Below are positions 41,373 to 46,003 of a DNA stretch of 64,000 nucleotides, piece after piece. A program made the translations under genes and the position numbers. The stretch comes from Luteibacter rhizovicinus (GTDB lineage Bacteria > Pseudomonadota > Gammaproteobacteria > Xanthomonadales > Rhodanobacteraceae), in NCBI RefSeq assembly GCF_004342265.1, contig NZ_SMCS01000002.1:496001-560000 (forward strand), read 5' to 3'. The notes under the pieces were generated by a model. It had not been told where the DNA came from. It worked only from the letters and a program-made list of their open reading frames with translations, and searched no databases. Within the stretch, counting starts at the first letter, position 1, and every line of letters starts with the position of its first letter.

Positions 41373-41441
41373 GGGAATGAATCGCCGCTCATCGCAAGAA
41401 TGGTGACCAGTGCGCGGAATTGCGCACGAGGGAGATCAAGG

Positions 41442-43130
41442 ATGAGCAAGATCAAGGTCGGTCTGGCACTCGGATGTCTGGCGTTGACCCTCATAGCGGG
41501 CATGTGCGCTTCAGGCTTCGTGATGCTGTTCCTGTTGAAGGCGAGCCACGTTCCCTGGACATGGAACACATACTGGAAGTACTTCCAGATACTCGGTCGA
41601 CCCGACGTCGCTCCCTACGCCGACACAGTCAAAGCAGCGGGTCTCGTGGGATTCGGCGTGCCGCTGATCCTGTGGACATTCCTACTGGTGAAGCTGTTCA
41701 AACGAATCGCCCCGGCCACGCATGGCGAAGCTCGCTTCGCACAGCGCGGCGAGCTTTCCCGACAAGGGCTGCTAAAGCCCACCGGCAATGGCATCGTCAT
41801 CGGTAAAACCGGCAACGATCTCCTGCGCCTGCACGGTACGCGGCACGCATTGCTGGCGGCACCGACGCGCAGCGGCAAAGGCGTCGGCGCGGTGATCCCG
41901 AATCTGCTGACCTACGGCGATTCGGTGGTCATGCTCGACATCAAACAGGAAGCCTATGACCTGACCTCCGGCTGGCGCTCGAAACTCGGCCCGGTGTTCC
42001 TCTTCAATCCGTTCGCCGAAGACTTGCACACGCATTGCTGGAACCCGATGTCGTACGTCAACGACGATGCCACGTTCCGCACCACCGACTTACAAGCCAT
42101 CGCCGCCATTCTTTACGACGATGAAGGCGGGAGCGATCCTTTCTGGACGAACAGTGCCCGCAACTGCTTCCTCGCGGCGAGCCTGTATTTGTTCGAGCAA
42201 TGGGACCACGAACGCCGACGCGGGAAGAAACGAGGTCGGGGCGGGATTCCCACACCGGGACGCATCTATCGACTGTTCTCCGGCGATGGCATCGACCTCA
42301 AGGCCTACCTGAGACGCCTTGCCGCACAACCCTTCCTGAGCCCCGACACCCGCACGGCGTTCGCCAACCTGACCACACTGGCCGACCAAACCCTGGCGTC
42401 GGTCATCGGCAGCTTTCAGGCGCCGCTGCACATCTTCCTCAACCCTATTCTGGATAAGGCCACATCGAGCGACAGCTTCCGATTGACCGACCTGCGCCGC
42501 AGGGCGATGAGTATCTATGTCGGTATCTCGCCGCACAAACTCGCCGAGTCGAGCAAGATCCTCAACCTGTTTTTCAGTCAGGCCATCAACCAGAACGTCA
42601 AGGAATTGCCGGAAAAGAATCCCGCACTGAAGCACCAGTGCCTGATCCTTCTGGACGAGTTCACCGCGCTCGGCCGTGTCGACATCGTCGCCAGATCGAT
42701 CAGTTATCTCGCCGGCTACAACCTGCGGATATTCACCGTTATCCAGTCGCTGTCGCAGCTGGACGCGACGTACGGGCGCGATGTCGCACGCAGCATGGTG
42801 ACCAATCTGGCCTGTCAGATCATCTATACGCCACGCGAACAGAACGACGCGAACGAGTACTCGGAAATGCTCGGCTACACCACACTACGCAAGCGCAACG
42901 AAACCCGCTCGAACGGCCGCGAAAGGAATATGTCCTACACCGAGGTCGAAGAGCGCCGCGCGTTGATGCTCCCGCAGGAACTGAAGGCATTGAGTCCCGA
43001 AGAACAGATCATTTTCATCGAAGGTAGCCCGCATCCGATCAGGTGCGGCAAGATCCGGTACTACACGGATCGCTTCTTCAAGAAGCGACTTTTGCCGAAG
43101 ATCGACGTGCCGAAACTAAGCCTGCACTGA
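41442..43130 (+). CDS. virD4: Type IV secretion coupling protein VirD4
   Basis: 562 residues. The ATG at 41442 has GGGAG about eight bases upstream; earlier in-frame ATGs add residues without similarity. Two membrane helices (about 6-32 and 66-85), then the HGEARFA strand typical of T4SS coupling proteins, Walker A APTRSGKGVG (residues 140-149) and Walker B LILLDEFTALG (Asp405, Glu406). This is the hexameric ATPase that docks effectors to a type IV secretion machine. In Xanthomonadales killing systems VirD4 recognises the XVIPCD domain, and such a domain is present two genes downstream. No virB genes are in the window. Confidence 0.93.
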   Translation: MSKIKVGLALGCLALTLIAGMCASGFVMLFLLKASHVPWTWNTYWKYFQILGRPDVAPYADTVKAAGLVGFGVPLILWTFLLVKLFKRIAPATHGEARFAQRGELSRQGLLKPTGNGIVIGKTGNDLLRLHGTRHALLAAPTRSGKGVGAVIPNLLTYGDSVVMLDIKQEAYDLTSGWRSKLGPVFLFNPFAEDLHTHCWNPMSYVNDDATFRTTDLQAIAAILYDDEGGSDPFWTNSARNCFLAASLYLFEQWDHERRRGKKRGRGGIPTPGRIYRLFSGDGIDLKAYLRRLAAQPFLSPDTRTAFANLTTLADQTLASVIGSFQAPLHIFLNPILDKATSSDSFRLTDLRRRAMSIYVGISPHKLAESSKILNLFFSQAINQNVKELPEKNPALKHQCLILLDEFTALGRVDIVARSISYLAGYNLRIFTVIQSLSQLDATYGRDVARSMVTNLACQIIYTPREQNDANEYSEMLGYTTLRKRNETRSNGRERNMSYTEVEERRALMLPQELKALSPEEQIIFIEGSPHPIRCGKIRYYTDRFFKKRLLPKIDVPKLSLH

Positions 43131-43152
43131 TTGAATCGAAAAGGAAGCACGC

Positions 43153-43755
43153 ATGATTCGCCCTCGAATACGTCACGCAAGCTACGCCTTTCTCCTCAGC
43201 TTTCTTTCTCTATTTGCCACAGGGTGCCAGACCGCCATGTCCAACACCGATCATCCGCATGAAGCCGGATCGTTCCGGAAGAATAGTTTCCCTTTGAAGT
43301 TCACCGATCACAATTTCTCGGCTTACTGCTTCAGCACTATTGGCTGCAAGGTTTTCTATCACGGCAGGTATGACGTCGAAGACCGCGACGACGAGGTATC
43401 GAGTCCTCTCATGGGACCGGACCACCTTCAACACCTCGATGCCGTCAGGGTCGGTATACAAAATTTTCCACCGCCAGCGATTGTTTCCTGGCGATCAAAA
43501 GACGGCGCGTATCACGAGGCGAAGATCGACCTCGATGAAATATTCAAAGACAGACGCATCGTGCACAACGTGGACGAGCGAGACATTCCCGATAACGCTT
43601 CTGTCGCCGACCCCGACATCTTATTGGTAGTCAATGATCGAACCATAAGTGTCTACATGAAGGCATTCATTCCGCTGAAGCATCAACGGGATCCAGGAAA
43701 TAAGTACAGCGCGCTGAGCCACGACGCGATTCTCGTTTACGCAAAGACTTACTGA
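43153..43755 (+). CDS. Lipoprotein, probable immunity protein for the downstream phospholipase
   Basis: 200 residues. Lipoprotein signal peptide: YAFLLSFLSLFATGC with Cys25 as lipidation site and Gln at +2, predicting the periplasmic face of the outer membrane. The mature part has FSAYCFSTIGCKVFYHGRYD, VSWRSKDGAYHEAKIDLDEIF and VNDRTISVYMKAFIPLK; I do not know a named domain for it. It lies 22 bp after virD4 and 22 bp before the toxin gene. Known X-T4SS immunity proteins are periplasmic lipoproteins next to their effectors, so immunity is inferred. The gene is visibly more AT-rich than its surroundings. Confidence 0.7.
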   Translation: MIRPRIRHASYAFLLSFLSLFATGCQTAMSNTDHPHEAGSFRKNSFPLKFTDHNFSAYCFSTIGCKVFYHGRYDVEDRDDEVSSPLMGPDHLQHLDAVRVGIQNFPPPAIVSWRSKDGAYHEAKIDLDEIFKDRRIVHNVDERDIPDNASVADPDILLVVNDRTISVYMKAFIPLKHQRDPGNKYSALSHDAILVYAKTY

Positions 43756-43777
43756 CGGATCGCAAAAGGGACAAGGA

Positions 43778-46003
43778 ATGACCGAGAAGCACGAGCGTGA
43801 CCCGAATGGACAACTTCAGGACAGTGTGAGTACGTATGCCCTCACAGCGACTGACATGGCTATTTTTCAAGGCGTAAGCGTGGGCCTTGCATCGCTTCCC
43901 GTGCCTACGCTGTATTGCTCATCCAATCCGCATGATCGTCTCTATGTGGCGAGTTTCGATGGCACTGGCAACGATGTGGACGGTGATCCCGAGCACGCGA
44001 CCAATGTGGCTCTGATGAGCAAGTCGCTCAAAAACATCGAGCGGACCAATCCCAATATTCGTGTTCAGTATCTTGAAGGCCCGGGAACGCAGAAAAATGC
44101 CCTCGTACGCATGGCAGATGGTGCTCTGGGCTATACATACGATGCTCGGCTTGAGGCAATGTATCGTAGATTTATCGGTCAAGCATCGGCTTGGCTGGAA
44201 GAAGATCCCCAAGCCAAAATACGAATCATCGAGACCGGTTTCAGTCGCGGTGCCGATCAGGCCGCGGGCTTCGCGCGCATGGTGCACGAACGTGGCATTC
44301 AAGACCCCAGCGGCTTTGAGCAATCCCAGCACCTGATTGGTCCAGACGAAATTACCTACAGCAAGCCAGCACTTGTCGCCCCTGGCAAGGTGCCCCAAGC
44401 CGTCGCCCTGTTCGACCCCGTCGGTACCGGCACACCCCAGAAGCGCGATCGCCATCTGCCGCCTTCGGTCGTGTCGGGTTTCCAGATCGTCGCGCGCGAC
44501 GAGCGGCGCAACGCGTTTCCCTCCAGCCAGATCATTCCGCAGGGGCTTTCGGCGGACGGCCGCTTCCTTGGCGTGACTGTCCCGGGCGCGCATTCGGACA
44601 TCGGTGGCAGTTATCACGTCGATGGACTGGCGCGCCTCAACGGCAACCTGATGGCCGATTACATCAATGCCCTGAGCGATACGCCGCTGGTGCAGAAGCG
44701 GGAGCTTCCGGACGATCCGGAGCGGTATGTCATCCACCGTTCCGAAGAACACCTTTTCATCTATCGAACCTCGACCTTCGAGCAGGATGGCGTACGCGAC
44801 GTCATGGGTGCGCAGATATCGCCGCCGCATTGTCGTCTCGTCGAAACCTGCGCACCGCCCGACCCGGTCGATCCGGCCCTCGCCGCCGAGTTGGGCGAGC
44901 GGCACCGGGTCGCCGAGCCAATGATGGCTCCGCTCTATACGGCTGTACGCGACATCGCTCCGGCGACGCCTGCCTATAGCGAGAATCTTGTCGAACCACT
45001 TCCTGCGCGCCGCTCGTATGACCTCGAACGCAGTCGCGCCATCGGCAATATCCCGCTGCCCGCCGACTACAACTACCGCGACGACACCTTGCCCGCCTCA
45101 TCCATTCAACCGGTGCACCGGTTGCCCACGGCGGACCCGGTCGCCGAGCGCGGGTTGTCGCGCGATGTGGACCTGATCAATCAACGGACGGAACAGGAGC
45201 TTGGCAGGGCGATTCCGGGCCAGGAACACGCGCCTTTTCGCGCGCCATCCCATACGCCGGACAAGAGCATCGAGCACCGGCATTCGCCCATGCAGACGCA
45301 GACGCCGCCCGAGGCCTCCATGCCGCGCACGGCTGAGCCGATCAATGCAACGCAGCCGCCCTTAACCCGGGAGCCGGAGGTTCCGGCACCTCAAGCCCAC
45401 ATCACACCGCCGCCTGTACCGTCGTGGCCCGAACCGTCGCGGTCGGCGATTGCCCAACAGCCTCCCGCGCCGTATGCCGGGTTTGCCCCGGAGCCCACCT
45501 ATCAGGCGCCATTCGCATCGCCGCCAGCGCCGCCCGCCGGTGACGTGGCGCCCTCGATGGACACGTTCCAACAGCGCCCCGATCCACGCACCCCGGGCCA
45601 TCCCGACCACGCCATGAACCAAAGCGTGCGTGAGCAGGTGCGCAAACTCTATGCCGATGAAAACATCACCCTGTCCGAACAGCACCTCGAATGCACGACG
45701 GCGGCCGTCATGGCCGATGCCCGGCTCTCCGGCATCACCCGCGTGACGTCTCTGGAATTCAGTTACGACGATATGAACCGGCCGGAGGTGAACGGCTACA
45801 TCTTCGCCTATCAGGGTGACCCGAACCAGGACGGCACGCCGGAAAGCTTCACCGATAGCAAGGCAGCGGCGATCACTCCGCCCGAGCAGTCTTACGAACA
45901 ATTCCAGCAAGCCACCCAGCACCACCACGACCGGGAAATGCAGGTCCAGCTACAGCAGGCACGTACCAACGCGCAGGAGCAGCAGCAAGGGCTGACGATC
46001 TGA
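43778..46003 (+). CDS. X-T4SS effector: DUF2235/Tle1-like phospholipase with C-terminal XVIPCD
   Basis: 741 residues, no signal peptide. Residues ~55-350 are a DUF2235 alpha/beta hydrolase (Tle1-type): SFDGTGND at 59-66, nucleophile elbow GFSRGA with Ser156, ALFDPVGTG with Asp213 and VPGAHSDIGGSY with His272, a full candidate triad. A Pro/Gln-rich linker follows (~350-605). Residues ~605-741 match the Xanthomonadales VirD4-interacting domain: HPDHAMNQSVREQV, MADARLSGITRVTSLEFSYD, YIFAYQGDPNQDG, then a Gln-rich tail. The protein is probably injected into rival bacteria to attack membrane phospholipids. The first ~500 bp are AT-rich, the rest GC-rich, suggesting a mosaic origin. Confidence 0.88.
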   Translation: MTEKHERDPNGQLQDSVSTYALTATDMAIFQGVSVGLASLPVPTLYCSSNPHDRLYVASFDGTGNDVDGDPEHATNVALMSKSLKNIERTNPNIRVQYLEGPGTQKNALVRMADGALGYTYDARLEAMYRRFIGQASAWLEEDPQAKIRIIETGFSRGADQAAGFARMVHERGIQDPSGFEQSQHLIGPDEITYSKPALVAPGKVPQAVALFDPVGTGTPQKRDRHLPPSVVSGFQIVARDERRNAFPSSQIIPQGLSADGRFLGVTVPGAHSDIGGSYHVDGLARLNGNLMADYINALSDTPLVQKRELPDDPERYVIHRSEEHLFIYRTSTFEQDGVRDVMGAQISPPHCRLVETCAPPDPVDPALAAELGERHRVAEPMMAPLYTAVRDIAPATPAYSENLVEPLPARRSYDLERSRAIGNIPLPADYNYRDDTLPASSIQPVHRLPTADPVAERGLSRDVDLINQRTEQELGRAIPGQEHAPFRAPSHTPDKSIEHRHSPMQTQTPPEASMPRTAEPINATQPPLTREPEVPAPQAHITPPPVPSWPEPSRSAIAQQPPAPYAGFAPEPTYQAPFASPPAPPAGDVAPSMDTFQQRPDPRTPGHPDHAMNQSVREQVRKLYADENITLSEQHLECTTAAVMADARLSGITRVTSLEFSYDDMNRPEVNGYIFAYQGDPNQDGTPESFTDSKAAAITPPEQSYEQFQQATQHHHDREMQVQLQQARTNAQEQQQGLTI

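Follow-up and report, generated by a model that had tools for sequence, protein, structure and literature searches.

The X-T4SS, the type IV secretion system (T4SS) of Xanthomonas citri and Stenotrophomonas, comprises, in the available part of its description (PMC6536674), a VirB channel, effectors carrying an XVIPCD (X-Tfe), lipoprotein immunity proteins (X-Tfi) encoded beside the effectors, and VirD4, described as one subunit of the system. In the portions of the literature at hand, X-T4SSs have so far been described with one VirD4 that recruits effectors. We analyzed a window of 64,000 nucleotides of Luteibacter rhizovicinus contig NZ_SMCS01000002.1 (the window is the whole stretch, and coordinates without another label are positions within it), in which three adjacent genes encode a VirD4, a lipoprotein, and an effector. 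The kinds of components are likewise those of the X-T4SS; the difference is that in Luteibacter an additional VirD4 stands in an effector-immunity unit far from virB. Since DUF2235 (PF09994) is already among the X-Tfe domains listed in the available part of PMC6536674, the effector type is not new. We regard the unit, with moderate confidence, as an auxiliary X-T4SS module in which an XVIPCD phospholipase effector and its immunity lipoprotein come with their own coupling protein, which feeds the resident VirB channel. This reading draws on gene content, recurrence, insertion, tag-VirD4 co-variation, and purifying selection, all seen at the level of sequence.

An earlier note, made from the letters of this DNA, had described three genes on one strand with 22-bp gaps, and the three open reading frames (ORFs) are indeed all on the + strand and 22 bp apart; the virD4 ORF has a possible alternative start at 41400. 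The first product is the coupling ATPase that the note proposed, with an E value of 2.8e-101 to Pfam T4SS-DNA_transf and both Walker motifs in place (APTRSGKG as Walker A and LILLDE as Walker B). The second has the expected lipoprotein sequence, with a signal peptide and a lipobox ending in FATGC, and from the residue after Cys25, a Gln, we take it to be sorted to the outer membrane. No Pfam or NCBIfam family matched this protein up to an E value of 1, and its structure model from three sequences had a predicted local distance difference test score (pLDDT) of 46, too low for the model to be used. For the third product, the DUF2235 hydrolase assignment was confirmed by T6SS_Tle1-like_cat (69.8 bits versus a cut-off of 27), and the C-terminal XVIPCD by X-Tfes_XVIPCD (58.1 bits versus a cut-off of 24.9). 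Profile A3, which combines the window XVIPCD with seven relatives, matches the solved XVIPCD 7mu9 (E value of 1.6e-8), the TfcB structure 7r6s (3.6e-8), and also 9p3h.

The host genome (G000; 4.47 Mb in 22 contigs; family Rhodanobacteraceae) has the virB genes that such a module would need, in an X-T4SS cluster with its own VirD4 on contig C1, between mutS and cinA/recA. Of the outcomes that the earlier note named as refuting it, the absence of an XVIPCD profile match and the absence of virB genes from the genome are excluded. Pfam recognizes VirB1, 2, 3, 6, 8, 9, 10, and 11 there, which with VirB4 makes nine of the eleven VirB subunits; VirB5, for which there is no Pfam match, and VirB7, whose TcpQ match of 26 bits is just below the cut-off of 27, were assigned by position. 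Seven XVIPCDs are above cut-off in G000, five of them in the C1 cluster, and that of the window is the weakest of the seven in the genome scan (63.6 bits versus 107-125). The description of the window virD4 as lone holds for the locus and fails for the genome, which has three VirD4-like genes, the C1 and C3 copies being 54% and 40% identical to the window VirD4. The location away from virB genes stands, as both VirB4s of the genome are on other contigs and no VirB match was found among the called genes of window positions 30000-56000. Contig C3 holds a further, more distant T4SS-like set (C3:253000-271000, L044), made up of relatives of VirB4, VirB8-11, and VirD4. Elsewhere on C1 (about 715-719 kb, L045:1150-5511), a row of four genes comprises an orphan VirB6-like gene, two small ones, and one for a lipase-XVIPCD effector, and another VirB6-like gene far from VirB4 was seen in genome G015 (C1:746408).

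We investigated the distribution of such units in 233 genomes of the family, 23 of them Luteibacter, using the window VirD4 as query with a cutoff of 1e-90 and at most six candidates scored per genome. VirD4 matches were found in 76 genomes and VirB4 in 74. A VirD4 was called an orphan when no VirB4 lay within 35 kb; by this definition 55 of the 116 VirD4 matches in the family are orphans and 61 are linked, and among the 58 VirD4s of Luteibacter the numbers are 36 and 22. Leaving out two main-type copies on split contigs (G014:C78 and G016:C33:24777) and one fragment (G007:C349) gives 33 loci in 19 genomes. The arrangement, which the earlier note had called unusual, is thus common in Luteibacter (33 orphan loci, 23 genomes). 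Eight of the nine single-contig Luteibacter genomes have an orphan, at a distance of 0.26 to 2.3 Mb from the single VirB4 that was found.

An effector-like gene with a profile-recognized tail adjoins 29 of the 33 Luteibacter orphans, the tail matching the XVIPCD profile in 9 and that of a second tail type, the D-tail, in 20. The D-tail matches at L050 and L051 are weak (E values of 4e-8 and 1e-7). At L062 the effector was recognized by resemblance (46% identity to the L064 effector), and the other three loci run off contig ends (a partial toxin at L047, two immunity genes at L073, and a partial effector at L101). At L093 the effector is upstream of virD4. Toxin regions of orphan modules include Tle1, class 3 lipase, glucosaminidase, and GH19 (chitinase-like), and the same VirD4 lineage is found with different toxins. 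In six loci (L047, L100, L046, L055, L058, and L061), two to four immunity-like genes stand in a row from VirD4 to the effector, and at L058:6164-7929 the Tle1 toxin is broken in two, the catalytic part and the XVIPCD each having an ORF of its own. In a sister family (f2), extra VirD4s occur with no VirB genes in the fetched stretch, where no VirB4 search was made; two of its loci, L154 and L169, have a lipoprotein relative, a Tle1 relative as toxin, and VirD4, in that order. A scan of genome contigs with the window VirD4 as query gave no relative, and one with the D-tail alignment gave 11 loci, of which 10 include a VirD4 in their stretch.

In a FastTree phylogeny of 97 VirD4s, most virB-linked copies form one clade, and the orphans fall into several (A, B, C, and D). 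Clade A, consisting of the window copy, L046, and L047, has as its sister group the virB-linked copies from another genus together with orphan L130; clade D VirD4s are about 44% identical to the window VirD4. Tail similarity was compared with VirD4 similarity in 38 modules, a set that takes in orphans of other genera and leaves out L052; L047, L073, and L101, with no complete effector at contig ends, are outside the Mantel tests, and L058 and L115, with broken toxins, are within the 38 and outside the Tle1-only test. The Mantel correlation is 0.62, or 0.61 as a partial correlation given the toxin, and tail versus toxin alone gives 0.27. Spearman correlation of tail with VirD4 is 0.55 in the 561 pairs with different toxins and 0.83 in the 142 pairs with the same toxin. 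In the 15 Tle1 modules, the Mantel and partial values are 0.83 and 0.82; in the 21 non-Tle1 modules the partial value is 0.61, and within clade D (18 modules) it is 0.38 (p 0.005). After dereplication at 80% VirD4 identity (24 modules), the partial correlation is 0.61 (p 2e-4). In these comparisons tail type follows the neighboring VirD4 more than the toxin, a tendency that is weaker after strong dereplication.

Clade D effectors end in a distinct domain, the D-tail (alignment A1), which the XVIPCD model largely misses at the C-terminus of these effectors. In an AlphaFold2 model from 11 sequences (pLDDT of 83.7), a pair of helices is followed by three strands and one long helix, a helix-sheet-helix order similar to that of the XVIPCD; the D-tail may thus be a remote relative of the XVIPCD, a kinship that is not proven. 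We rejected the stronger statement that it is a proven XVIPCD, as profile-profile comparison does not join the two (probability of 6%, E value of 0.006). An iterated D-tail hidden Markov model, which went from 44 to 52 to 149 matches and then took in canonical XVIPCDs, may have drifted and was not used as proof, and the best hit of the D-tail profile in a sequence search of PDB (DNA topoisomerase I, E value of 0.0019) was taken as chance.

At an E value of 1e-5 or better, the D-tail occurs in 35 of the 233 genomes and was not found in that of the window. Strong D-tails (below 1e-30) occur in 24 genomes, of which 23, all except G021, have a VirD4 assigned as matching by its identity of 42-46% to the window VirD4; in three genomes such a VirD4 occurs and strong D-tails are missing, although two of the three have weaker matches. 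With kinship ignored, the Fisher p value of this co-occurrence is 1.7e-15 in the 74 VirB4-positive genomes and 1e-5 in Luteibacter (10/11 versus 0/12). Of 54 D-type tails, 39 are within 12 kb of a VirD4. Tle1 toxins beside clade D VirD4s have an internal XVIPCD plus a terminal D-tail in 8 of 9 cases, as though an old effector had been given a new address.

In L050, L051, L062, and L064, the VirD4 ORFs (762-766 aa) carry an in-frame extension of about 205 aa; a signal-bearing gene encoded apart from VirD4 is homologous to it (77% over 201 aa in L050) and, from its place, is probably an immunity gene. Remote VirD4-like proteins were also found, for example, in G020; three of them, of 788-852 aa, were examined (L211:3970-7622, L212:2656-6509, and L213:1508-5175), and two of these three score under the T4SS-DNA_transf cut-off of Pfam. 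In each of the three cases the gene shares 4 bp with an ORF of 416-434 aa whose product has a D-like tail (E values of 3e-15, 4e-6, and 3e-4). The products of these ORFs make up a putative effector family that shares an RYWNYLA-type N-terminus and a Gln-rich D-like tail.

Walker A GK and Walker B DE are kept in all 97 aligned VirD4s, and the ratio of nonsynonymous to synonymous substitution rates (dN/dS) is 0.07-0.28 across 11 orphan pairs, with dS near 1 in several; by these measures the orphans are under purifying selection. When orphans are compared with the main VirD4 of their genome, conservation in clades B, C, and D is lowest, the N-terminal part aside, at residues 241-300 of the all-alpha domain; in clade A this region is as conserved as the neighboring stretch. 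The idea that the L059 VirD4 is a chimera, of clade C with an all-alpha domain from clade D, was rejected, as sliding windows show no switch.

The features of the module are collected in the table below. On one side it is flanked by a proline utilization gene (Pro_dh plus Aldedh) and on the other by a 2OG-Fe(II) oxygenase gene. These genes are 126 to 1212 bp apart in five relatives (L192-L196), and in the window they are 5.6 kb apart, with the module in this interval; in L197 and L198, the other two of seven relatives with the oxygenase, the fetched stretch had no match to the proline utilization gene. Comparison of the flanks thus shows the module to be inserted where relatives have a tight junction. 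The G+C fraction is 0.555 at 42-44 kb, and every other 2-kb block of the window has 0.60-0.68. The linker of the window toxin contains a motif of the type SSLxPVHKL...LLRDLxIxNxxTRxELG, which was also seen near the N-terminus of immunity-like or small proteins in orphan modules L053, L061, L088, L090, L091, L094, L096, L097, and L103. A family of ORFs of about 90 aa (DLLNEATEWLQYARGLTELLAELVHE; for example, L053:11805-12122 and L097:8777-9049) gave 17 matches in 16 of 139 stretches searched and none in the window; the 16 comprise 3 of the 42 main loci and 13 further stretches, each of them an orphan-VirD4 locus.

Table. Features of the three-gene module in the 64,000-nucleotide window; the boundaries of the all-alpha domain are estimates.
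Feature	Position	Strand	Basis
Orphan virD4, 562 aa	41442..43130	+	Pfam, motifs, 54% identity to C1 VirD4
Walker A of orphan virD4	about 41859-41882	+	motif
Walker B of orphan virD4	about 42642-42659	+	motif
All-alpha domain of VirD4 (approximate), residues about 205-320	42054..42401	+	between two ATPase parts aligned to Cag5 8dol
Lipoprotein, probable immunity protein, 200 aa, lipobox Cys25	43153..43755	+	sequence; relatives at 19/33 Luteibacter orphan VirD4s
Effector, 741 aa	43778..46003	+	Pfam
Tle1-like catalytic region, residues about 3-376	43784..44905	+	own Tle1 profile, Pfam PF09994
Linker motif SSIQPVHRL...	45098..45232	+	common to immunity-like proteins of other orphan modules
XVIPCD, residues 604-711	45587..45910	+	Pfam PF20410; relatives of solved 7mu9, 7r6s
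Gln-rich C-terminal tail of effector	45911..46000	+	sequence

In the auxiliary module that we propose, the effector would be a phospholipase carrying a C-terminal XVIPCD-type tag, and the lipoprotein would protect the producer and its kin. The orphan VirD4 would be a dedicated, or at least preferred, coupling protein: it would recognize the tag and dock, together with or instead of the main VirD4, on the VirB channel, whose genes are at another place in the chromosome. In Luteibacter and relatives, tag and VirD4 would diverge together and toxin domains would be exchanged. VirD4-tail binding, docking, secretion, and immunity are what we infer. The suggestion of the earlier note that the VirD4 might be a dedicated adaptor gains support, at the sequence level, from two findings: the arrangement recurs at 33 loci in Luteibacter, and tails track the neighboring VirD4.

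Several observations weigh against the proposal. The partial correlation between tail and VirD4 falls to 0.35 (p 0.02) after dereplication at 70% (11 modules) and to 0.33 (p 0.08) at 65% (8 modules), and the significance tests ignore kinship among genomes. The all-alpha domain predicts tails no better than other parts of the ATPase (0.60 versus 0.60 and 0.54). Residues 241-300 are the lowest or tied lowest in conservation among main VirD4s too (0.83 within genus, 0.68 between genera), so the divergence of this region is not special to orphans. A strict code is broken by L059, which combines a clade C VirD4 with a D-tail and has no 42-46% VirD4 found in its genome, and by L061, with a clade C VirD4 and a canonical XVIPCD. 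The remaining 15 of the 54 D-type tails are more than 12 kb from any listed VirD4, 12 of these being in genomes with an orphan-type VirD4 elsewhere.

As the window tail is still an XVIPCD, it might be legible to the main VirD4, in which case a private copy may be unneeded; the main VirD4 would then deliver this effector like other X-Tfes, the orphan being a hitchhiking or relic paralog. The 54% identity of the two VirD4s and the many canonical XVIPCD effectors in the main cluster or elsewhere fit with this. We nevertheless hold it to be unlikely: against it stand the Walker motifs intact in all 97 sequences, the dN/dS values given above, the presence of a linked effector-like gene at 30 of 33 loci (contig ends cut the other three), the tails that track VirD4, and the fusions to an immunity-like domain.

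We find it decidedly unlikely that virD4 is mainly a recombination anchor, in which shared 5' sequence would aid the exchange of downstream effector-immunity cassettes, as proposed for type VI secretion system (T6SS) loci, with a protein not essential for the effector. Such an anchor would account for one VirD4 lineage occurring with different toxins and for the immunity arrays at several loci; by itself it leaves unexplained that the tail follows VirD4 and that the D-tail is the terminal domain of clade D Tle1 toxins, and in L154 and L169 VirD4 comes last. Service to another channel, such as the C3 set with its VirB4, VirB8-11, and VirD4 relatives, is very unlikely: the window VirD4 is closer to that of the X-T4SS than to the C3 one (54% versus 40%), and a listed VirB4 of the 37-42% type is in none of the 22 other Luteibacter genomes, whereas orphan VirD4s are in 18. 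Competition with or modulation of the main VirD4, acting by inhibition or priority and not by recognition, has a precedent in a chimeric coupling protein that cut transfer of native systems about tenfold (available part of PMC7431656) and predicts no tail-VirD4 co-variation, which makes it most improbable.

Beyond the auxiliary module of the window, we lean mildly toward a wider picture in which several coupling proteins, each for its own tail class, serve a single T4SS channel, and new toxins arrive as plug-in units with their own loader. It would take in an evolving tail-VirD4 code with at least one class, the D-tail, outside the XVIPCD profile, loader-immunity fusions, and the remote VirD4-like proteins of about 800 aa that overlap a further putative effector family. 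No report of an effector module with its own VirD4 was found in literature searches that included the available parts of PMC6536674, PMC6759196, PMC10989847, PMC11253643, PMC10933484, and PMC12857230. Modules with a coupling protein of their own would show how horizontal transfer brings new cargo to a secretion channel that itself stays fixed, would provide natural tail-VirD4 pairs for mapping a recognition code, and would make effectors missed by XVIPCD searches findable via the linked VirD4.

The window effector shares its catalytic region, above the Pfam cut-off, with the Tle1 T6SS phospholipase family (PF09994); unlike Tle1 T6SS effectors, it has an XVIPCD and adjoins a T4SS coupling protein. 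In Vibrio cholerae, auxiliary or orphan VgrG clusters of the T6SS are scattered units that pair a delivery component with effector and immunity genes. The machine is different in Luteibacter, and the component that travels is the coupling ATPase. A cargo unit with its own coupling protein is also known from the mobilizable plasmid CloDF13, whose MobB works, according to the available part of PMC7431656, with the R388 channel lacking TrwB, so borrowing of a resident channel is possible; the difference is that the CloDF13 cargo is DNA on a plasmid, with no toxin or immunity.

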